Positions 8,310-36,510 of a DNA stretch of 44,459 nucleotides are shown one piece after another (positions within the stretch are counted from its first letter, which is position 1; every line of letters starts with the position of its first letter). A model generated the notes under the pieces. The model made no database searches and was not told the origin of the DNA. It worked only from the letters and a program-made list of their open reading frames with translations. A program made the position numbers and the translations under genes. Source of the DNA: Thermodesulfovibrionia bacterium (GTDB lineage: Bacteria > Nitrospirota > Thermodesulfovibrionia > UBA6902); assembly GCA_020057065.1 (NCBI GenBank), contig JAGVGM010000328.1, forward strand, positions 1-44,459, written 5' to 3'.

Positions 8310-9722
8310 TTAAATATCAAAATACAGGAAGAACTCATAGGGGTGCGGCCTTAATCTCAGCGCATCAACCTCGTTCGTTCTTTTGTAGCTTATCCATTTC
8401 TCAATGGCGTCTTTTGTAAATACATTCCCTTTCATCAGGAATTCATGATCAGCTTCAAGATGATTCAGGGCCTCTTCAAGGGTTCCCGGCATTGTAGGCA
8501 CATTTGCAAGTTCTTCCGGTCCAAGTTCGTAAATGTCCTTATCAAGGGGCTCGCCCGGATGGATCTTGTTCTCTATCCCGTCCAATCCAGCCATCAGCAT
8601 TGCAGAGAATGCCAGATAGGTATTGCATGACGGATCAGGGAATCTCACCTCAACCCTCTTTGCCTTCGGACTTGCGGAATAAGTCGGTATTCTTATGGAA
8701 GCTGAACGGTTTCTTGCAGAGTATGCAAGATTAACAGGGGCTTCAAATCCCGGGGTCAGTCTCTTGTAGGAATTTGTGGTCGGGTTTGTAAGAGCTGCAA
8801 GTGCTTTTGCATGTTTCAACACGCCGCCGATGTAATAGAGCGCCATATCGCTTAATCCGGCATAGCCGCTGCCTGCGAACAGAGGCTTGCCGCCCTTCCA
8901 TATACTCTGGTGAACGTGCATCCCTGAGCCGTTATCGCCGAATAATGGTTTCGGCATGAATGTCGCTGTCATATTGTGCCGTCTTGCAACATTTTTAACT
9001 ATGTATTTAAAGAGCATGTTCTTATCAGCCATGTTGACGAGGGAGTCGAATCTCATATCAATCTCTGCCTGTCCTGCTGTTGCAACCTCATGATGCTCTC
9101 TCTCAACATAGATGCCGCATTTCTGCATCTCCATGACCATCTCTGTCCTGAGATTCACCTGACTGTCAGTCGGCGGAACAGGGAAATAGCCTTCCTTGTG
9201 ACGCGGTTTATATCCGAGATTCGGGTTTTCTTCTTTACCGGAATTCCAGATGCCTTCCACAGAGTCAATGAAATAGTAACCGCTGTGCGAGTTCTGGTCA
9301 AACCTTACCCCGTCAAAGATAAAGAACTCCGCTTCGGGACCAAAATATGCGGTATCTCCCACGCCGGTTGATTTGAGATATGCCTCAGCCTTCTGAGCAA
9401 TAAATCTCGGATCCCTTGTGTAAAATTCCTTTGTAATCGGGTCCACGATATTGCAGATAAGGCTGATGGTCGGATACTGCATAAACGGATCCATGAATGC
9501 AGTCTTAGGATCCGGGATTATCAGCATGTCCGATGTGTGTATCGCCTGCCATCCCCTGATCGAAGAGCCGTCAAAACCGAGCCCTTCCTCGAATATCTCC
9601 TCTTTCAATTCTGCTATCGGCACTGCAAAATGCTGCCAGATGCCGGGAAAATCAAGGAACTTGAAATTTGCCATAACCGCCTTGTTTTCCTGCGCCATCT
9701 TGATTACGTCTTTTGGTGTCAT
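8310..9722 (-). CDS. glnA: Type I glutamine synthetase
   Basis: A 470-residue GSI, full length, that condenses ammonium and glutamate to glutamine with ATP. Hallmarks: [10 protein letters not shown] near residue 50, FGPEAEFF (metal ligands), [10 protein letters not shown], the ATP-binding [27 protein letters not shown] region, and [12 protein letters not shown] at the end. Tyr398 in [11 protein letters not shown] is the adenylylation site, which places it in the GSI-beta type regulated by GlnE, encoded 1 kb away. The start is fixed by AGGAGGAAAC just before the ATG at 9722. It is the last gene of the leftward amt/glnK set. No sigma-54 motif was seen in the 115 bp upstream, so it may be transcribed by read-through as well as by a sigma-70 promoter. 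Confidence 0.98.
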
Positions 9723-9836: not shown

Positions 9837-10511
9837 CTACGAGAAAAATATTTTGTAAAATTTTTCCGCCCTGCTTCTATATTCTTCAAAAAACGTTTCT
9901 GTCTCTCTTTCAATCTGTTTGAAATCCTGGTCATCCTTCAACCATTCCAATATCATCTCCTTTCTCACCTCTATGTGGAACTGAAATGCATATGCTTTAT
10001 AGCCATGCCTGAAGGCCTGATTCGGATAGAGCGCTGAGGACGCGAGACTGACCGCGCCTTCCGGTATATCAAAAGTTTCACCATGCCAGTGAAAAACAGT
10101 TGAGAGTTTAGAGTTATGAGTTAAGAGTGAAGAAAAGACTGCATCTCTCAATCCATCTTCAGTAGCAGATATAGCATACCAGCCTATTTCCTCTTTGTGC
10201 CCTTTATAAACTTTTGCGCCCAATGCCTTTGCCATTATCTGGGCGCCGAGACAGATACCTAAAATCTTCTTCCCTTTTGAGATGAAATCCCTGACGAGTT
10301 TTTCTTCATCTTTTATATAGGGATAGATCTCATCTTCATTAACGCTCATCGGTCCGCCCATCATGATAAGTGTATTGAAATTGTCAGGATTTAAGATTTT
10401 CTCCCCGCTTGCAAGCTCAATAATTGTGTAAGGAATATTATTCTTTATTAGATAATCTTCTATCGTCCCGGGACCTTCGGTTTTTATGTTTTTACAAATA
10501 AGCACTGACAT
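9837..10511 (-). CDS. Class I glutamine amidotransferase-like protein
   Basis: A 224-residue single-domain GATase of the type related to the N-terminal part of GMP synthase. The triad is visible: Cys87 in LGICLGAQ, His179 and Glu181 in FQFHIE; GGPMSV (residues 52-57) supplies the oxyanion turn. It would hydrolyse glutamine, or a gamma-glutamyl compound, to release ammonia or glutamate; the acceptor is unknown because no synthetase domain is attached. The stop of glnK lies three bases before its ATG, so it is in the amt-glnK operon, just before glnA. Oddity: residues near 127-138 (SSLLTHNSKLST) are encoded by a low-complexity repeat of the GAGTTAAGAGT type, apparently inserted in frame before the conserved FHWHGE. 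Confidence 0.9.
   Translation of the reverse strand: MSVLICKNIKTEGPGTIEDYLIKNNIPYTIIELASGEKILNPDNFNTLIMMGGPMSVNEDEIYPYIKDEEKLVRDFISKGKKILGICLGAQIMAKALGAKVYKGHKEEIGWYAISATEDGLRDAVFSSLLTHNSKLSTVFHWHGETFDIPEGAVSLASSALYPNQAFRHGYKAYAFQFHIEVRKEMILEWLKDDQDFKQIERETETFFEEYRSRAEKFYKIFFS
10100..10134. repeat. Low-complexity repeat inside the amidotransferase gene
   Basis: A run of degenerate GAGTTTAGAGTTATGAG/TTAAGAGTGAAG units, all variants of GAGTTA. It lies within the coding sequence without breaking frame, at a point where relatives normally pass directly from a short helix to the FHWHGE motif. The comparison is from memory of the family, not an alignment. Confidence 0.5.
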
Positions 10512-10514
10512 ATG

Positions 10515-12202
<1,688 letters not shown>

Positions 12203-12236
12203 TTTACCTCCATTCTGGACATTTTGAATGGAGGTA

Positions 12237-12252
12237 TGCAAAAGTCATACCT
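12237..12252 (-). promoter_or_regulatory. Possible sigma-54 promoter upstream of amt
   Basis: On the minus strand AGGTATGACTTTTGCA gives GG-N10-GC with a good TTGCA -12 box but a weak -24 box. The predicted start would lie near 12226, 24 nt before the amt ATG. It may provide an internal promoter in the long nitrogen operon. Confidence 0.35.
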
Positions 12253-12295
12253 TTCCTAACCTCCTGTTTTCATTAGTGATTTCTCAGCCAGTTCC

Positions 12296-12397
12296 CTACA
12301 ATTTTGTAGGAAACTAAGGCCGATAGAATCATTTTCCATTAAATAACAAAAGGTTATAAAATTAAGCTACAAAATTGTAGCTCCTACAAAATTGTAG
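12296..12397. repeat. Three 14-bp CTACAAAATTGTAG palindromes
   Basis: Copies at 12296-12309 (CTACAATTTTGTAG), 12367-12380 and 12384-12397 (both CTACAAAATTGTAG). The last abuts the stop codon of glnK, and the last two are four bases apart. This is a second palindrome family, distinct from the GTAGGGGCGGG repeats. The copies lie between glnK and the second amt and could attenuate read-through. Confidence 0.7.
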
Positions 12398-12784
<387 letters not shown>

Positions 12785-12787
12785 TTA

Positions 12788-14137
12788 TTAAAGTGTGTAC
12801 CCGCTTTCTCCATGCTGTGCATGGTCCAGTCCTACAAATTCGCTCTGGTCGTCAACCCTCAGTCCCATTGTTGCATCAAGCGCCTTCAGTATAATGAGTG
12901 TAATTACAAAGGAATAGACCCATGCAGCGCCAATGCTTATCAGCTGATTCATTAAGAGAGACGGATTTCCAAAAAACAGACCGTCATTGCCTGCCGAATT
13001 AATCGCCTTTGATGCAAAGAGACCGGTCGCAATTGCGCCCCAAGTGCCGCCTACTCCGTGAACACCAACTACATCGAGAGAGTCATCGTATCCGAATTTT
13101 GACTTGAGATTAATTGCCAGGTAGCAGATAACCCCTGCAGCAAGCCCGATAATAATTGATGCCATGGGTCCGACAAAACCGGATGCAGGAGTAATTGCAA
13201 CAAGTCCCGCAACCGCGCCTGATGCTGCGCCGAGCGCAGTCGGTTTTCCCCTGTGCTTCCATTCTGTAAACATCCAGGACAATGCCGCTGCTGCCGTTGC
13301 GATATGCGTAACAACAAAGGCTGATGTTGCAAGAGAGCCTGATGCGACTGCGCTGCCGCCGTTAAACCCAAACCAGCCGAACCACAGCAATGCAGCCCCT
13401 ATTAAAGTCATGGTAATGTTATGCGGCATCATCGGTTCTTTGCCGTATCCCTTTCTTTTCCCGACAACAATTGCTGCAGCCAGAGCCGATACACCTGAGC
13501 TGATATGCACTACAAGACCTCCGGCGAAATCAAGCGCTCCGAGGTTTCTTATCCAGCCGCCGACACCCCAGACCCAGTGTGCAAGAGGAAAATATACAAA
13601 TGTCGCCCAGAGCACAAGAAATACGAGATATGTGCTGAATTTAAACCGTTCAGCAATCGCTCCTGTTATGAGTGCAGGAGTGATAACAGCAAACATCATC
13701 TGGAATATCATGAACGCCTGATGCGGGATAGTTGCCGCATAATCAGGATTCGGCTCAAGCCCAACACCCTTTAGTCCTATCCAGTCAAGATTCCCTATAA
13801 CGTGTCCAACATCAGGGCCGAATGCCAGGCTGTACCCGTAAAGCACCCAAATAATAGTGATAACACCAAGCGCTATAAAGCTCTGCATTATTGTCCCTAA
13901 TACATTCTTGCGCCGGACCATCCCGCCGTAAAAGAGTGCAAGCCCCGGCGTCATCAGCATAACAAGGGCGGTGGAGATTAAAACCCACGCGGTGTCTCCT
14001 GTATCAACTTTTGGAGCAGGCGCAGTCTGTTCAACCGCTGCCGTTACAGAAGGGGACAAACCCGCCTCTTCTGCAAAAGCAAAATTTGCCAATGCCAATA
14101 AACCCATTACTACTAAAATACTCAATAGTCGTTTCAT
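12788..14137 (-). CDS. amt: Ammonium transporter (second paralogue)
   Basis: A 449-residue Amt protein with a cleavable-looking signal peptide (residues 1-22, ANFAFA then EEAG), a Pro-rich stretch, then about eleven membrane helices. Pore His residues are in LAHWVWGVGG and GVHGVGGTWG. Clear AAGGAGGGATAAC precedes the ATG at 14137. It lies 15 bp downstream of the outer-membrane protein gene and 51 bp upstream of glnK. It differs from the amt at 10907 in the signal region and several loops, so the pair are diverged tandem paralogues rather than a recent copy; they may differ in affinity or in GlnK preference. Confidence 0.97.
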   Translation of the reverse strand: MKRLLSILVVMGLLALANFAFAEEAGLSPSVTAAVEQTAPAPKVDTGDTAWVLISTALVMLMTPGLALFYGGMVRRKNVLGTIMQSFIALGVITIIWVLYGYSLAFGPDVGHVIGNLDWIGLKGVGLEPNPDYAATIPHQAFMIFQMMFAVITPALITGAIAERFKFSTYLVFLVLWATFVYFPLAHWVWGVGGWIRNLGALDFAGGLVVHISSGVSALAAAIVVGKRKGYGKEPMMPHNITMTLIGAALLWFGWFGFNGGSAVASGSLATSAFVVTHIATAAAALSWMFTEWKHRGKPTALGAASGAVAGLVAITPASGFVGPMASIIIGLAAGVICYLAINLKSKFGYDDSLDVVGVHGVGGTWGAIATGLFASKAINSAGNDGLFFGNPSLLMNQLISIGAAWVYSFVITLIILKALDATMGLRVDDQSEFVGLDHAQHGESGYTL

Positions 14138-14152
14138 GTTATCCCTCCTTAG

Positions 14153-14884
14153 TTAAAAGTCTATATCCAACTGTACGGTTGCAGTCGGTTTGTAAGTGCT
14201 TTTATTAAATATATCATAGCCGAATATCACGCCAACATTCGGTGCAAATTTCCAGGCAACGCCAACACTCAATGCGCCGTAGCCGTTGTCGCCGCCCTGA
14301 TAATCGACTGCAGCCCAGAGCTTGTCCGATATCTCCGAAATCGTCCTGTCCCATGAAAGAAGCACCCCATTGTTATCCTTATTGCCATCGATGTCTACTA
14401 AAAGGTCTTTATTCCCGGTGTAATATCCGGCTGAAAATCTCCCGAAATTTCCGAATGTCTTTGCTACAAGACCATAGTACAGATTGTAGTTAGTTATATC
14501 ATTCTTTGTGCCGAAATCATATCCTCCCAACGCTATGGCCGGGGAACCTGTGAACAGGGCATTTTCGGGAGTCCCGATCTTTGCATTAAACAAGAGGGGG
14601 TATGTGTGATCGCCGCCGGTGTCCCTGTAATCAACTCCAAGTTCCACCTGAACCTTCTCATACGGTAATATACCGGCGGTTAACCCTATATTAGAAACAG
14701 TAGGTTCTGTAACGCCGTTCTGACTCTGAGTCTTAATATAACTGTCAAGACCGAAATGCACCTTCTTATACGGCTGTATATCTGTAGACGGGATCCATAT
14801 CTGTGTAGACGGTGTGGCATATGCAATTCCGGCCAACAAAACAAGCAATATTGTTTTTACTGCAACGACTCTAAAGATTTTCAT
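14153..14884 (-). CDS. Putative outer-membrane beta-barrel protein of the amt operon
   Basis: A 243-residue protein with a signal peptide (residues 1-23, cut near AYA/TPST). The remainder shows alternating amphipathic strands with Gly and aromatic residues, and the protein ends in QLDIDF, with a terminal Phe as in many outer-membrane barrels. GGAGGGTAAC precedes the ATG. It sits 15 bp upstream of amt and downstream of the HTH gene, so it is probably co-expressed under nitrogen limitation. A porin for ammonium or small nitrogenous solutes is a reasonable but unproven role. I do not recognise a named family. Confidence 0.75.
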   Translation of the reverse strand: MKIFRVVAVKTILLVLLAGIAYATPSTQIWIPSTDIQPYKKVHFGLDSYIKTQSQNGVTEPTVSNIGLTAGILPYEKVQVELGVDYRDTGGDHTYPLLFNAKIGTPENALFTGSPAIALGGYDFGTKNDITNYNLYYGLVAKTFGNFGRFSAGYYTGNKDLLVDIDGNKDNNGVLLSWDRTISEISDKLWAAVDYQGGDNGYGALSVGVAWKFAPNVGVIFGYDIFNKSTYKPTATVQLDIDF

Positions 14885-14964: not shown

Positions 14965-15132
14965 CTACCCCTCCTCCTTTCTTATTCCATATTTTTTAAC
15001 CTTGTACCCTATCATCCTTTCAGTAATGCCAAGCTTACGTGCAGCTCTTGCCATCACCCAGTCGCATTCTTTTAAGGCCCTGATTATTTCTTCCTTCTCA
15101 ATTTCCCTTATCTGTTCCTTTAATGAATTCAT
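14965..15132 (-). CDS. Stand-alone NifA-type (Fis-family) helix-turn-helix protein
   Basis: A 55-residue protein starting at 15132 behind AAAGGAAT. It consists of only a Fis-type HTH domain: helix EKEEIIRALKE, then WVMARAARKLGIT, then RMIGYKVKKYGI. By eye about 25 of 41 residues match the C-terminal HTH of the NifA-like activator at 28213 (WVQAKAAKLLGIT, RQIGYKIKKYGL). There is no AAA+ or sensor domain. It should bind NifA-like sites as a dimer without activating sigma-54 polymerase, so it could act as a competitor or an architectural factor. A near-consensus sigma-54 promoter lies just upstream and the amt operon just downstream. It is not a decayed nifA remnant by appearance: it has its own ribosome binding site, start and stop, and no upstream AAA+ debris. 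Confidence 0.85.
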   Translation of the reverse strand: MNSLKEQIREIEKEEIIRALKECDWVMARAARKLGITERMIGYKVKKYGIRKEEG

Positions 15133-15156: not shown

Positions 15157-15172
15157 TGCTAAAATCGTGCCA
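15157..15172 (-). promoter_or_regulatory. Sigma-54 promoter of the HTH-amt-glnK operon
   Basis: On the minus strand TGGCACGATTTTAGCA matches the consensus TGGCACG-N4-TTGCA with one mismatch and has GG and GC exactly ten bases apart. The predicted transcription start is near 15146, some 14 nt before the HTH ATG, leaving just enough room for AAAGGAAT. Confidence 0.8.
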
Positions 15173-15277
15173 GAGCGTAACTTATTGATATAATTAATAA
15201 CAAACCTTATGCTGGCAACATAATTGTAACTATAACGACATAATTGTCCGACAAATTTGTTTGGGATTATTTGTTAA

Positions 15278-15413: not shown

Positions 15414-16907
15414 TTACAGAAAAAGTTTTTTCTGATCATCACGCAGTTGAGTAACGCATTCTTCAGGAAAGTAAAATCTGCTCTTAAATACCCTTCTCAT
15501 TAACGACACTAACTGGCGGAATTTGTATGCGTCATGGTTGGAGTCTCCTTTCTGCTCAGAGAGCTGCCAGCTATGCTCATCAGATATTCTCAGTTCTAAG
15601 GCAAGGGTATGCTGTTCGGTTTTTTTATCGATCTTGTTTCTCTCCAGAAATTCTGCGGTGCCGGGAATTATAATTTTGTTTGTTGCCGCACTCCTGTGAA
15701 TCGGAATGGATATATTCAACTTACATTGAAACTTATTGTGACCCATTGCAGAATATGGGTTCTTTGCAGCATTAATGCTCAAAGCTTCATAAAAGTTCCT
15801 GGCATATCCGGTCAATTCCACATCCGTAGGTATTTCTCCACGGCCCTCACTTTTTGAGAGACTTAGTATCAGTTTTTTCACAGCGCTAAGCATGCTTTCA
15901 GGGGAGTCAAAAAGTGTCTGGGTGATAGTCTGGGAAAGGGTATTCTCCTGCAGTATGACCCCTCTTTTCTGTAAGGCGTGAAACAGCATCAACGTATCAT
16001 CCCTGTTTTTTAGAATGAAAGTAATAGCAAGAATATCTCTGATAATGTGGGCTTCACCTTCAATATTCACTCCTAATTTTGTAAACATGCTGTTAGGGCT
16101 TTTCAATCTGGACTCTATACTGACAATGTCCACCTCAACACCGTCTCCGCTTTTAAAAACAAGGCATCCCTTGCTGATATCATAGCTGACAAGCTCCTTA
16201 AGCTTGAGGAAAAAAGTGGAAATCTTTACAAAAGCCCTTTGTGCAGCATCGCTTTCAGGAATGTAAGGTGGAGTATGCCAGTCATAGTTGTATAGATTAT
16301 GAAGCCCTTGCCCTTTAATTTCAAAGAACAAGCCCAGTTGTCCGTAATCATTAATGTCCTGACTGTCTTCCTCTATGGACTTCACCAGATAGGCAACTTT
16401 GAGAATGGAGCAGGCTGTCTGTTGCCAGTCAGGAGCAACATCCATATTTTTGTCTTTATAACCATGAAAGACATGGGGATACTTTATTGATGAAGCCATG
16501 AGAAACAGATGACGAGGGTCCTCAAACACTATGTCTCTGAATTCGCGGTTATCGAGTATCATTTCAATTGCAGCGATAACCTGCAGACAGTTCCTGTATA
16601 CCTGGTAATTTAATGAATTCAGGGCTTCGAGCTTGTTAAGCTGTACTTTTATAGAAGGAAATAGAAAATTATAACAATAACGATATGCTTCCCTTATGTA
16701 CTTTACTGCCCTCTCTTTTTCGGATAGTTCCAGATCATTGCCTTCTAAAGTATCAAAGCCACGGTTTCCCATTATTTTTGTGGCCTGCCTAAGTGCAGTC
16801 GCATAATTATAAGTCTTCAATAAGAGATATGGAGTCATGTTAATTCTATCGAGAACAGAGCCGAAAATATCATGATATAGCTCATGACCTGATGATATGT
16901 TGTTCAT
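15414..16907 (-). CDS. Hypothetical protein with possible RelA/SpoT-like nucleotidyltransferase region
   Basis: A 497-residue soluble protein starting at the ATG at 16907 with AAGGAGAAATTT before it. The N-terminal 220 residues are alpha-helical with no known motif. Around residues 255-330 (VDIVSIESRLKSPNSMFTKLG, then IIRDILAITFIL with RDDTLMLFHAL) the pattern recalls the RelA/SpoT (p)ppGpp synthetase core (Arg-x-Lys-x-x-x-Ser, then Asp and hydrophobic strand). I recall uncharacterised TIGR04552-like families with this look, but could not verify this. It may therefore be a diverged nucleotidyltransferase or an inactive relative. It is transcribed alone; its upstream 370 bp carry no gene. Confidence 0.6.
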   Translation of the reverse strand: MNNISSGHELYHDIFGSVLDRINMTPYLLLKTYNYATALRQATKIMGNRGFDTLEGNDLELSEKERAVKYIREAYRYCYNFLFPSIKVQLNKLEALNSLNYQVYRNCLQVIAAIEMILDNREFRDIVFEDPRHLFLMASSIKYPHVFHGYKDKNMDVAPDWQQTACSILKVAYLVKSIEEDSQDINDYGQLGLFFEIKGQGLHNLYNYDWHTPPYIPESDAAQRAFVKISTFFLKLKELVSYDISKGCLVFKSGDGVEVDIVSIESRLKSPNSMFTKLGVNIEGEAHIIRDILAITFILKNRDDTLMLFHALQKRGVILQENTLSQTITQTLFDSPESMLSAVKKLILSLSKSEGRGEIPTDVELTGYARNFYEALSINAAKNPYSAMGHNKFQCKLNISIPIHRSAATNKIIIPGTAEFLERNKIDKKTEQHTLALELRISDEHSWQLSEQKGDSNHDAYKFRQLVSLMRRVFKSRFYFPEECVTQLRDDQKKLFL

Positions 16908-28212: not shown

Positions 28213-29745
28213 ATGACTGAAAAGCATCATAAAACAGATCTGATCGTTCATAAGAACAGGGAACTTGCCGCTATTCTCGAAGTCAGCAAGGTTCTGACCG
28301 CATCTTTCGATCTCGAGAAAAACCTTTCCTCTGCAATGGCGGCTCTCGGGAATCTTCTTGAGATGCAGAGAGGATGCGTGTTCCTGCTGGACCCGCTGTC
28401 ACAGGAACTGCGCATTGCTGCTGCCCACGGACTTACAAAACAAAATATCGAAAAAGGCAAATATCGGATCGGGGAAGGCATTGTTGGAAGAGTTCTCGGT
28501 AAAAAAACGCCTATGGTGATCCCTAATATCGGGAAGGAACCTCTCTTTTTGAACAGGACAGGTTCACGTCCTGAAAAAGACGGGATCTCTTACCTGAGTG
28601 TCCCGATAGAATTTAAGAATGAGGTGTTGGGCGTATTAAGCGTAGACAGGATCTATTCAATAAAACACGGGAGTGTGGATGATGACCTCAGGGTTTTAAA
28701 AATTGTTGCCTCCCTTATAGCACAGTTTGTCAGGCTGTGGGAAAGCTACGAAAAAGTCGAAAAAGAAAAAGAGATTTTAAAAAGGGAACTAAAGGGAAAA
28801 TACAGCATAGATAATGTCATCGGTCAATCAGACAGGATGCAGGAAGTATTTGCGGCTGTCCACCGCGTAGCTCCGACAAAGGCAACGGTAATCTTACGGG
28901 GAGAGAGCGGCACAGGGAAAGAGCTCATCGCCAGGGCGATCCATTATATGAGCCCAAGGAGCAAGTACCCGTTCATTAAATTTAACTGTGCATCGATACC
29001 TGAAGGACTTCTTGAATCAGAACTTTTTGGCCACGAGAGGGGCGCGTTTACAGGCGCCATATCTTCAAGAAAGGGCCGGTTTGAACTTGCTGACAAAGGG
29101 ACAATTTTTCTTGATGAGGTCGGCGACCTGCCATTGACGCTGCAGCCGAAAATCCTGCGGGTACTGCAGGAAAGAGAATTTGAGCCGGTCGGCGGTGAAA
29201 AGACCATCAAGGTCGATGTCAGGATAATTACCGCGACAAGCAGGGATCTGGAGCACTATGTATCACAGGGAAAATTCAGGGAAGACCTGTATTACCGGCT
29301 AAATGTTATCCCGGTTTTTCTTCCGCCGCTCAGGGAAAGAAGTGAAGACATCAATACACTGATTGAGTATTTTCTGGCAAAGTTCAATAATGAACATAAC
29401 CGTTCTGTACATCCTGATAAAAATGCCCTGCAAATTCTCCTGAACTACGATTGGCCCGGAAATGTCCGGGAACTGGAAAATACCATTGAGCGGTTGGTGA
29501 TCATGTCAACTTCAGATATAATTGCCCCGTCAGATCTGCCCGATTCACTGAGTGTTCGCCGCCTAAAAGTTTTAAATAAATCCGTTTCATTAATCACTAA
29601 TATCGAGGAGATAGAAAAGACAAATATCCGCGACGCCCTCGAAAAGTCGGGATGGGTTCAGGCCAAAGCGGCAAAACTTCTGGGAATTACGCCGCGCCAG
29701 ATAGGGTATAAGATAAAAAAATACGGATTGGAAGAAAAAAGTTGA
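28213..29745 (+). CDS. NifA-like sigma-54-dependent activator (GAF-AAA+-HTH)
   Basis: A 510-residue enhancer-binding protein: GAF domain (about 20-175), AAA+ domain (195-430) and Fis-type HTH (465-508). Walker A GESGTGKE starts at residue 230; the sigma-54 contact loop GAFTGA is at 277-282; Walker B GTIFLDEVGDL follows. The domain order and the HTH (IGYKIKKYG) match NifA and related nitrogen regulators. The Cys-rich linker of oxygen-sensing alphaproteobacterial NifA is absent. It is a plausible activator of the sigma-54 promoters at 8042 and 15157. Whether it is true NifA depends on nif genes elsewhere. Its TGA overlaps the start of the next gene. Confidence 0.92.
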   Translation: MTEKHHKTDLIVHKNRELAAILEVSKVLTASFDLEKNLSSAMAALGNLLEMQRGCVFLLDPLSQELRIAAAHGLTKQNIEKGKYRIGEGIVGRVLGKKTPMVIPNIGKEPLFLNRTGSRPEKDGISYLSVPIEFKNEVLGVLSVDRIYSIKHGSVDDDLRVLKIVASLIAQFVRLWESYEKVEKEKEILKRELKGKYSIDNVIGQSDRMQEVFAAVHRVAPTKATVILRGESGTGKELIARAIHYMSPRSKYPFIKFNCASIPEGLLESELFGHERGAFTGAISSRKGRFELADKGTIFLDEVGDLPLTLQPKILRVLQEREFEPVGGEKTIKVDVRIITATSRDLEHYVSQGKFREDLYYRLNVIPVFLPPLRERSEDINTLIEYFLAKFNNEHNRSVHPDKNALQILLNYDWPGNVRELENTIERLVIMSTSDIIAPSDLPDSLSVRRLKVLNKSVSLITNIEEIEKTNIRDALEKSGWVQAKAAKLLGITPRQIGYKIKKYGLEEKS

Positions 29746-35818: not shown

Positions 35819-36292
35819 TTAAACAACGATATAGAGATATAACTCGTAACCAACTACTATCAGGTATATATTTATAATAACCGGCAGGCATATTCTCGTA
35901 ATATTAACATTTTTTAAAAGGCACATGACAATCAATGATAAGGATGTTATTGTAAATTTTATTAAAGAAAATTGAAAAACGCCCTTATCCAGAAAAAAAG
36001 CCATAACCGGGTTTGCTTCATACACAACGCCCTTATTTATTAATTCAAGTGTTAAAAATGCATCCAGACAACTCAGGCTTAAAAGGAATAAGACCGCGAC
36101 CAACAGTCTTGTGCTGTATAGATCCACAAAAATATGATCTTTCTTATCTCCGTCCCTCCTTGCCTTCCTTCTTCTGCCACCCCAAAGAGTATATCTGCCG
36201 ATGATCGGCGTTGGGCCCCTGCGCCTGTCAGGAACCGCCCTCAGGTCTCCGCTTATTGATAGTTCAGTTATGTCATTATAACTGCAATTCAT
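35819..36292 (-). CDS. DUF5658-type membrane protein
   Basis: A 157-residue protein: basic, Arg-rich soluble N-terminus (RRRGPTP, GGRRRKARRDGDKKD), then three membrane segments (about 60-78, 100-125 and 130-155). CLDAFLTLELINKGVVYEANPVMAFFLDKG is the DUF5658 hallmark. Function unknown. It converges on the PilZ/ParA operon. Confidence 0.8.
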   Translation of the reverse strand: MNCSYNDITELSISGDLRAVPDRRRGPTPIIGRYTLWGGRRRKARRDGDKKDHIFVDLYSTRLLVAVLFLLSLSCLDAFLTLELINKGVVYEANPVMAFFLDKGVFQFSLIKFTITSLSLIVMCLLKNVNITRICLPVIINIYLIVVGYELYLYIVV

Positions 36293-36358: not shown

Positions 36359-36510
36359 CTTGCTGCCAACACAATACCAGATACTAAAATCCTTGCAAAC
36401 CTCGTGCCACAGCATAACATGTTGATTTAATGGATAATATATTTTAAAACATAAAATAAACTGTAAAATAAAGCGACATATATGTAATTTTTTTCTTTTT
36501 ATATTACTGA

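Follow-up and report, generated by a model that had tools for sequence, protein, structure and literature searches.

The DNA-binding domain at the C-terminus of the activator NifA (TIGR01817) is of the HTH_8 type, as is the 55-residue protein analyzed here (the mini-protein, product of the mini-gene). Unlike NifA, the mini-protein has no GAF or AAA+ domain, carries methionine in place of a glutamine, and is encoded by a gene of its own under a separate promoter. E. coli Fis likewise is a stand-alone protein with the same fold. Fis is a global nucleoid protein with N-terminal arms and an extra dimerizing helix; it is the known precedent for an activator-type DNA-binding domain standing alone, and Morett and Bork reportedly proposed in 1998 that it derives from an NtrC-type DNA-binding domain. 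In contrast to Fis, the mini-protein comprises 55 amino acids, is tied to ammonium gene clusters and is nearer to NifA. Its best structural matches, which are also among its best sequence matches, are domains of A. aeolicus sigma-54 activators (2m8g; NtrC1, 4l5e; NtrC4, 3e7l), which we take to be fragments of full-length activators and not natural stand-alone proteins.

The microProteins of eukaryotes are small single-domain relatives of multidomain regulators that exert dominant interference. The mini-protein is also a small single-domain relative of a multidomain regulator, and we propose that it interferes as well; it differs in being bacterial and would act at DNA, not by dimerization. Ammonium operons with a leader gene have a described counterpart in nlmA-glnK-amtB of Herbaspirillum seropedicae, a nitrogen-limited amt-glnK operon that is NtrC-dependent and begins with a membrane-associated protein (PMC3023670). 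Unlike for the operon described here, the parts of that report considered name no HTH leader gene (PMC3023670). A search of the open-licence full-text literature, judged by titles, abstract starts and term counts, found no description of a stand-alone NifA-type domain before amt.

The stand-alone HTH gene and its neighbourhood

The window, the whole stretch of 44,459 nucleotides that was analyzed, contains the mini-gene at 14965–15132 (−) as a complete ORF of 55 amino acids with an ATG start, a stop codon and the string AAGGA directly 5′ of the ATG, in agreement with the ribosome binding site and stop of the original prediction. Residues 8–48 match Pfam HTH_8 (PF02954; profile positions 2–42 of 42) at 52.1 bits against a cut-off of 22, and GAF and AAA+ families are absent from the Pfam matches, which bears out the claim that the protein consists only of a NifA-type HTH. 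The top NCBIfam match is the C-terminus of NifA (TIGR01817, positions 488–530) at 39.5 bits, below the whole-protein cut-off of 528.85 for the equivalog. The Fis model is absent among the 14 NCBIfam matches to E 0.1, and a protein from another class (L248) reaches 20.7 of 99 bits on the Fis equivalog model. The window also encodes a full-length NifA-like activator (GAF-AAA+-HTH) at 28213–29745 (+), the presumed user of the promoter boxes described below, which scores 575 bits on TIGR01817, above the cut-off. The mini-protein is identical to this activator at 28 of 48 positions (E 1e-15) and, over the HTH span, at exactly 25 of 41, the number that had been estimated by eye.

The AlphaFold (AF2) model of the mini-protein has a mean pLDDT of 93.4 and predicts three helices (residues 4–22, 27–34 and 38–48), with helix A missing from the fold. 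Foldseek ranks activator DNA-binding domains best, followed by E. coli Fis structures, and recovers the Fis-like three-helix HTH core with a TMq of ~0.8 to Fis chains, at E values of 0.04 and above. In its own assembly, which spans 4.16 Mb at 98.67% completeness and 6.04% contamination, the mini-gene is the only stand-alone gene of such length; each of the 17 further matches to E 1 lies in an open frame of at least 194 amino acids.

Seven genes follow 3′ of the mini-gene on the same strand (−). The first is an ORF for a 243-aa exported protein (14153–14884), beta-barrel-like by eye and with no Pfam or NCBIfam family match. It is succeeded by a first ammonium transporter gene amt (12788–14137) and glnK-type PII gene (12398–12736), a second amt (10907–12241) and glnK-type gene (10515–10853), a gene for a class-I glutamine amidotransferase (9837–10511) and glnA, encoding glutamine synthetase (8310–9722). 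The expected amt, glnK and glnA genes are thus all present downstream, and we infer that the mini-gene through glnA forms one transcript. Judged by its sequence and setting, the mini-gene encodes a DNA-binding-domain-only relative of NifA, kept as the leading gene of an amt-glnK cluster. Upstream of the operon, a 497-aa ORF at 15414–16907 (−) weakly resembles TIGR04562/TIGR04552 (~60 bits, below cut-off), and five of the fetched loci (L063, L087, L096, L106 and L127) contain a homologue of it close to the mini-gene.

The neighbourhood was counted for 85 stand-alone copies, found in 79 of the best 80 loci. Nine of the 85 lie too close to a contig end; among the 76 informative copies, 69 are followed by amt on their own strand within 2.5 kb, and amt is in turn followed by glnK in 53 cases. 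The seven informative copies without amt within this distance belong to L095, L102, L062, L082, L067 (both copies) and L108. The stand-alone gene of L095 and L102 precedes the amidotransferase gene and glnA, with amt just upstream, and that of L062 and L082 has amt ~6 kb beyond it, while no amt was seen around either L067 copy or around L108. Four loci (L096, L111, L119 and L127) contain two stand-alone copies each, every copy with its own amt unit. Comparable units occur in two genomes from another class of the same phylum. In G121, two small HTH genes (79 and 71 aa) lie among three amt genes, two glnK genes and an NAD synthase gene. The order in G178 is HTH, a homologue of the 243-aa protein, amt, glnK, glnK, NAD synthase and glnA; this homologue (39% identity) lies directly 3′ of the stand-alone HTH.

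Distribution and conservation

We searched 120 genomes, namely the own genome and 119 relatives, for homologues of the mini-protein. Matches at E 1e-8 occur in 103 of the 120, a number in which stand-alone proteins and full NifA proteins are mixed. A hand count by frame length among the matches listed gives a short-frame homologue (<200 aa) in at least 77 of the 120 genomes (76 relatives and the own genome), excluding a 123-aa frame in G057 that is probably a NifA fragment. The original prediction had named absence of the gene from close relatives as evidence against it; the mini-gene is present in nine of nine genus-mates. A phylum-wide sample yields matches at E 1e-14 in 114 of 395 genomes, again with stand-alone and full NifA proteins mixed. 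The contig scan was restricted to close relatives, and its best 80 of 132 loci are mostly titled Nitrospirota or Thermodesulfovibrionia. These best 80 of 132 loci, the L019–L047 loci and the window together provided the 94 different small ORFs compared below. A plasmid search returned 41 records, all below 60% identity and none reaching 80% query cover, and 11 of the 15 rows shown carry a nifA annotation.

An SD-like string lies 5′ of 51 of the 93 unique stand-alone genes. In 39 of 39 NG86 comparisons with the window gene, some of them within the same species, dN is 0.03–0.15 and dS is >1 or saturated, values which indicate that the mini-gene is under purifying selection. Conservation and dN/dS together exclude a chance or spurious ORF.

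With a match at E 1e-150 taken as presence of NifA, a hand count over the 119 relatives gave 66 with both mini-gene and NifA, 10 with the mini-gene only, 17 with NifA only and 26 with neither; the equivalent count for mini-gene and nifH found neither in 31 of the 119. The ten of 76 mini-gene-bearing relatives without a NifA match at this threshold include G003, which is 97% complete. Two of them (G047 and G050) encode a full-length homologue of lower similarity (38–39% identity), and four (G001, G003, G007 and G044) have no homologue over the full length, which may reflect assembly gaps.

The promoter and its boxes

The sigma-54 promoter of the original prediction is confirmed by a −24/−12 element at 15157–15172 (−), which reads TGGCACGATTTTAGCA, lies 24 nt 5′ of the ATG and falls within a genome-wide pattern match. 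Further upstream on the same strand are an IHF-like site, TATCAATAAGTTA, at 15178–15190 (−) and three boxes of the form ACA-W4-TGT, all (−). The proximal box at 15218–15227 and the middle box at 15238–15247 both read ACAATTATGT and were found by pattern search; the distal box, ACAAATTTGT, at 15251–15260 lies 13 bp from the middle box and follows the family-wide pattern. The 20-bp spacing of the proximal and middle boxes creates a TGT-N10-ACA sequence, the canonical NifA site, which was considered as the enhancer. We rejected this description, as TGT-N10-ACA is found in only 12 of 83 stand-alone promoters and 15 of 29 nifH promoters. When the best box pair was sought in each promoter, all four arms matched equally well (0.93–0.98), and we therefore took the ACA-W4-TGT box as the unit, which describes the enhancer better. 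A second tandem pair, ACAATTTTGT-N7-ACAATTTTGT, is located before the second amt at 12369–12395 (−). Exact box pairs with a gap of 5–14 bp occur in the 4.16-Mb assembly only at 15218–15247 and 12369–12395, both in this cluster, and no reversed-pattern pair occurs there. Within 12240–12400 of the window, two boxes and a third further down precede the second amt, with no obvious −24/−12 element by eye.

This layout is conserved in relatives, where the palindromic ACA-W4-TGT boxes and, in many cases, an IHF-like site are followed by a sigma-54 −24/−12 element and then by the mini-gene. Of the 94 upstream regions, 83 were kept as stand-alone promoters, having a −24/−12 score of at least 11 of 14.5 at 8–50 nt from the start and enough upstream sequence; the remaining 11 were excluded from the promoter counts. 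The −24/−12 element lies 11–46 nt from the start in these 83 promoters and 11–27 nt in 79 of them, and in site-aligned promoters the box centres are mostly near −70 and −51, often also near −83, relative to the −24 element. Of these 83 promoters, 78 contain at least one exact box (mean of 0.76 in dinucleotide shuffles) and 48 at least two (0 in shuffles). Box spacing varies between 13/14 bp and 17–20 bp; the best spacing is 18–19 bp in 48 and 13–14 bp in 19 of the 83 mini-gene promoters, compared with 20 bp in 20 of 29 nifH promoters.

The boxes are shared with nitrogenase genes. Of 30 nifH loci fetched (L130–L159), 29 had usable promoters, and these carry at least one exact box in 24 cases (0.36 in shuffles) and at least two in 10, boxes which resemble those upstream of the mini-gene. 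A sigma-54 promoter and boxes in common with nifH, the features by which we recognize a NifA-regulon target, are both found at the mini-gene, and the same boxes at relatives' nifH suggest that the operon probably belongs to the regulon of the NifA-like activator. Across the 120 genomes nifH occurs in 54, and this search did not find it in the own genome (G000); the NifA-like protein here may therefore serve ammonium assimilation only. Seven of the nine genus-mates have nifH, and four of these carry it on the contig of the mini-gene, at a distance of 9–13 kb.

A combined box-plus-sigma-54 pattern has matches in 10 of 10 genus genomes, and the reversed pattern has 0. Nine of the ten have a match at the mini-gene (G009 being the exception) and five have one at nifH; further matches lie at nifB (L204 was read, and two other loci are similar) and before the second amt in G003 and G005. 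The own assembly contains the pattern in three places, one of them at the mini-gene. Another, at 1501–1572 of L190 (G000:C224), precedes a gene whose 369-aa product matches PurF at just 13 bits; by eye this protein has the look of an Ntn-type glutamine amidotransferase and is a possible extra member of the nitrogen regulon. The remaining one, at 36395–36485 (−) of the window, precedes a gene for a DUF5658 protein (35819–36292), and a pattern match in the genus-mate G009 is similar to it in sequence.

We also considered amt loci in 16 genomes without a detected stand-alone gene. From 15 of them 27 amt loci were fetched (G063 gave none), of which 25 were readable. Sixteen of the 25, in 12 of the 15 genomes, carry at least one exact upstream box; no exact box was found upstream of amt in G049, G095 and G097. 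Among 11 of the 16 box-bearing loci that were read closely, 10 have a pair, eight of these at 18-bp spacing. The next ORF encodes a porin-like protein in L260 and is glnK in L254 and L264. Four g35 genomes (G058, G060, G064 and G112) encode a full-length NifA-like protein with 57% identity, with no mini-gene detected. Two candidate signatures of the mini-protein were rejected on this comparison. CTACA/TGTAG half-sites make up 87 of 268 at stand-alone promoters versus 7 of 68 at nifH, but also 20 of 40 at amt without a detected stand-alone gene, and the 18-bp spacing recurs there at the frequency just given. Since boxes, flanks and spacing all persist at these amt loci, none of them marks the promoter as a target of the mini-protein. 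It is most likely the NifA-like activator that uses the boxes, presumably by binding them, and the mini-protein is not needed for this.

Regulatory readings of the mini-protein

Without an AAA+ domain, the mini-protein cannot by itself activate sigma-54 polymerase, and a co-expressed domain placed on the activator's own boxes would hinder the activator. This leads to the reading that the mini-protein may serve the ammonium cluster as an intrinsic brake or tuner, and among several readings we consider negative feedback the likeliest, with a probability of about one half. Under nitrogen limitation, the NifA-like protein would bind the boxes, IHF would bend the DNA, and the NifA-like protein would fire sigma-54 RNA polymerase. 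The mini-protein would be the first product and, as it accumulates, would occupy the same boxes, with two protomers meeting on the palindrome. Devoid of GAF and AAA+ domains, it would cap or damp the operon that encodes it, and perhaps further promoters with boxes, and the outcome would be negative feedback tied to each ammonium operon. The four loci with two copies, each beside its own amt unit, fit such operon-tied feedback. The co-occurrence of mini-gene and NifA in 66 relatives also speaks for this reading, and the ten relatives with the mini-gene but no NifA match speak against it. The isolated DNA-binding domain of G. diazotrophicus NifA is reported to bind its UAS alone with a Kd of ~20 µM and, like others without helix A, to be monomeric according to the authors (PMC10590331). 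The three-helix model of the mini-protein appears to be of the same type as this monomeric, weakly binding domain.

The mini-protein could instead assist the activator, as a Fis-like architectural factor that sits beside or between NifA-like dimers, bends or organizes the enhancer and raises activation of the ammonium operon. The rank of E. coli Fis structures directly after activator domains is consistent with such a role, as are the many promoters with two boxes, or with three when one mismatch is allowed (24 of 83), whose variable spacing leaves room for two proteins; the leading position of the mini-gene would then yield positive feedback. However, bending may already be supplied by the IHF-like site. 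Its consensus WATCAANNNNTTR, presumably that of IHF, is exact at −18 or −17 in 27 of 83 stand-alone promoters (1.1 in shuffles) versus 1 of 29 nifH promoters, and in 29 of 83 versus 5 of 29 under relaxed matching. Moreover, the model has only three helices, N-terminal arms such as those of Fis do not fit 55 residues, and boxes remain at amt where no stand-alone gene was detected. We regard this role as unlikely.

The recognition helix raises a further alternative. Residue 40 is methionine in 92 and isoleucine in two of the 94 stand-alone proteins, whereas it is glutamine in 33 of 33 readable NifA-like proteins; the NifA-like set comprised 40 loci, and the HTHs of the seven not readable by script also read RQ. 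The Arg-Gln of NifA-like recognition helices is absent from the stand-alone proteins, 94 of 94 of which read T[ED]R[MI], and the copies from another class also have methionine or isoleucine at the glutamine position. The residue before the arginine is glutamate or aspartate in the stand-alone proteins and Pro (17), Glu (5), Gln (4), Ser (4), Ala (2) or Asp (1) in the NifA-like proteins; glutamate at this position was dropped as a mark of the mini-protein, since six of the 33 readable NifA-like proteins are acidic there too. In a tree of 89 HTHs, a subset of 26 stand-alone proteins groups together (82/87; seen in 84% of bootstrap trees) and joins the NifA-type HTHs apart from those of other activators (95/89), with support that is rough given 47 columns and an unsettled bootstrap.

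The replacement of glutamine by methionine or isoleucine means that the DNA preference may differ from that of NifA. Together with glutamate for the usual proline, it could direct the mini-protein to DNA targets of its own elsewhere; the mini-protein would then be a nitrogen-responsive regulator in its own right that merely happens to be encoded in this operon. The uniformity of the altered position, unlike NifA in every sequence, suggests a specific DNA site. Against this, Arg34, Ile36, Gly37, Tyr38 and Lys39 of the aligned domain are unchanged from NifA (both sets being motif-filtered), an acidic residue before the arginine does not in itself imply a new address, and the loci with two copies, each next to an amt unit of its own, point to a local task. 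A distant address is therefore, in our view, improbable. Least probable by far is a decoy that contacts the NifA-like protein or GlnK instead of DNA with a KEVRWIE-type tail as docking peptide in a subset: 19 of 93 unique stand-alone proteins (L062, L071, L079, L097, L103 and others) carry a C-terminal KE[VI][RQ]W motif beyond the HTH, and an alignment of 17 proteins selected for this motif shows invariant E54 and W57, but the window protein and most relatives have no tail, the tail region is of low confidence in the predicted model, and the recognition-helix region is the best conserved part of these proteins.

Negative feedback thus remains the preferred reading. That the mini-protein competes with the activator for its enhancer sites, as originally proposed, is plausible on sequence grounds: nifH-type boxes stand at the promoter, where both proteins could plausibly meet. 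The simple form of this competition fits less well with the methionine or isoleucine in place of glutamine, the three-helix fold of a weak binder and the boxes at amt in genomes without a detected stand-alone gene. Our estimate for feedback stays at about one half because the affinity is probably weak, glutamine is replaced by methionine and the promoter shows no mark of the mini-protein. Somewhat more tentatively, the parts may combine into a microProtein circuit that extends over a class of Nitrospirota and some genomes beyond it. The first gene of NifA-type ammonium operons would supply a version of the activator reduced to DNA binding and bearing a fixed, altered recognition helix; this protein would limit enhancer occupancy and cap ammonium uptake in proportion to operon expression, independently of any signal-sensing domain.

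The box grammar itself, ACA-W4-TGT with an IHF-like site and a −24/−12 element, predicts which genes of these genomes belong to nitrogen regulons. Should the feedback reading prove right, the mini-protein would be a naturally occurring equivalent, maintained by selection over much of a bacterial class, of the isolated NifA DNA-binding domains produced in the laboratory, and another case, beside Fis, of the DNA-binding domain of an enhancer-binding protein turned into a separate protein. It would also offer a simple genetic brake for NifA-driven promoters and give insight into the nitrogen regulation of these mostly uncultured Nitrospirota.
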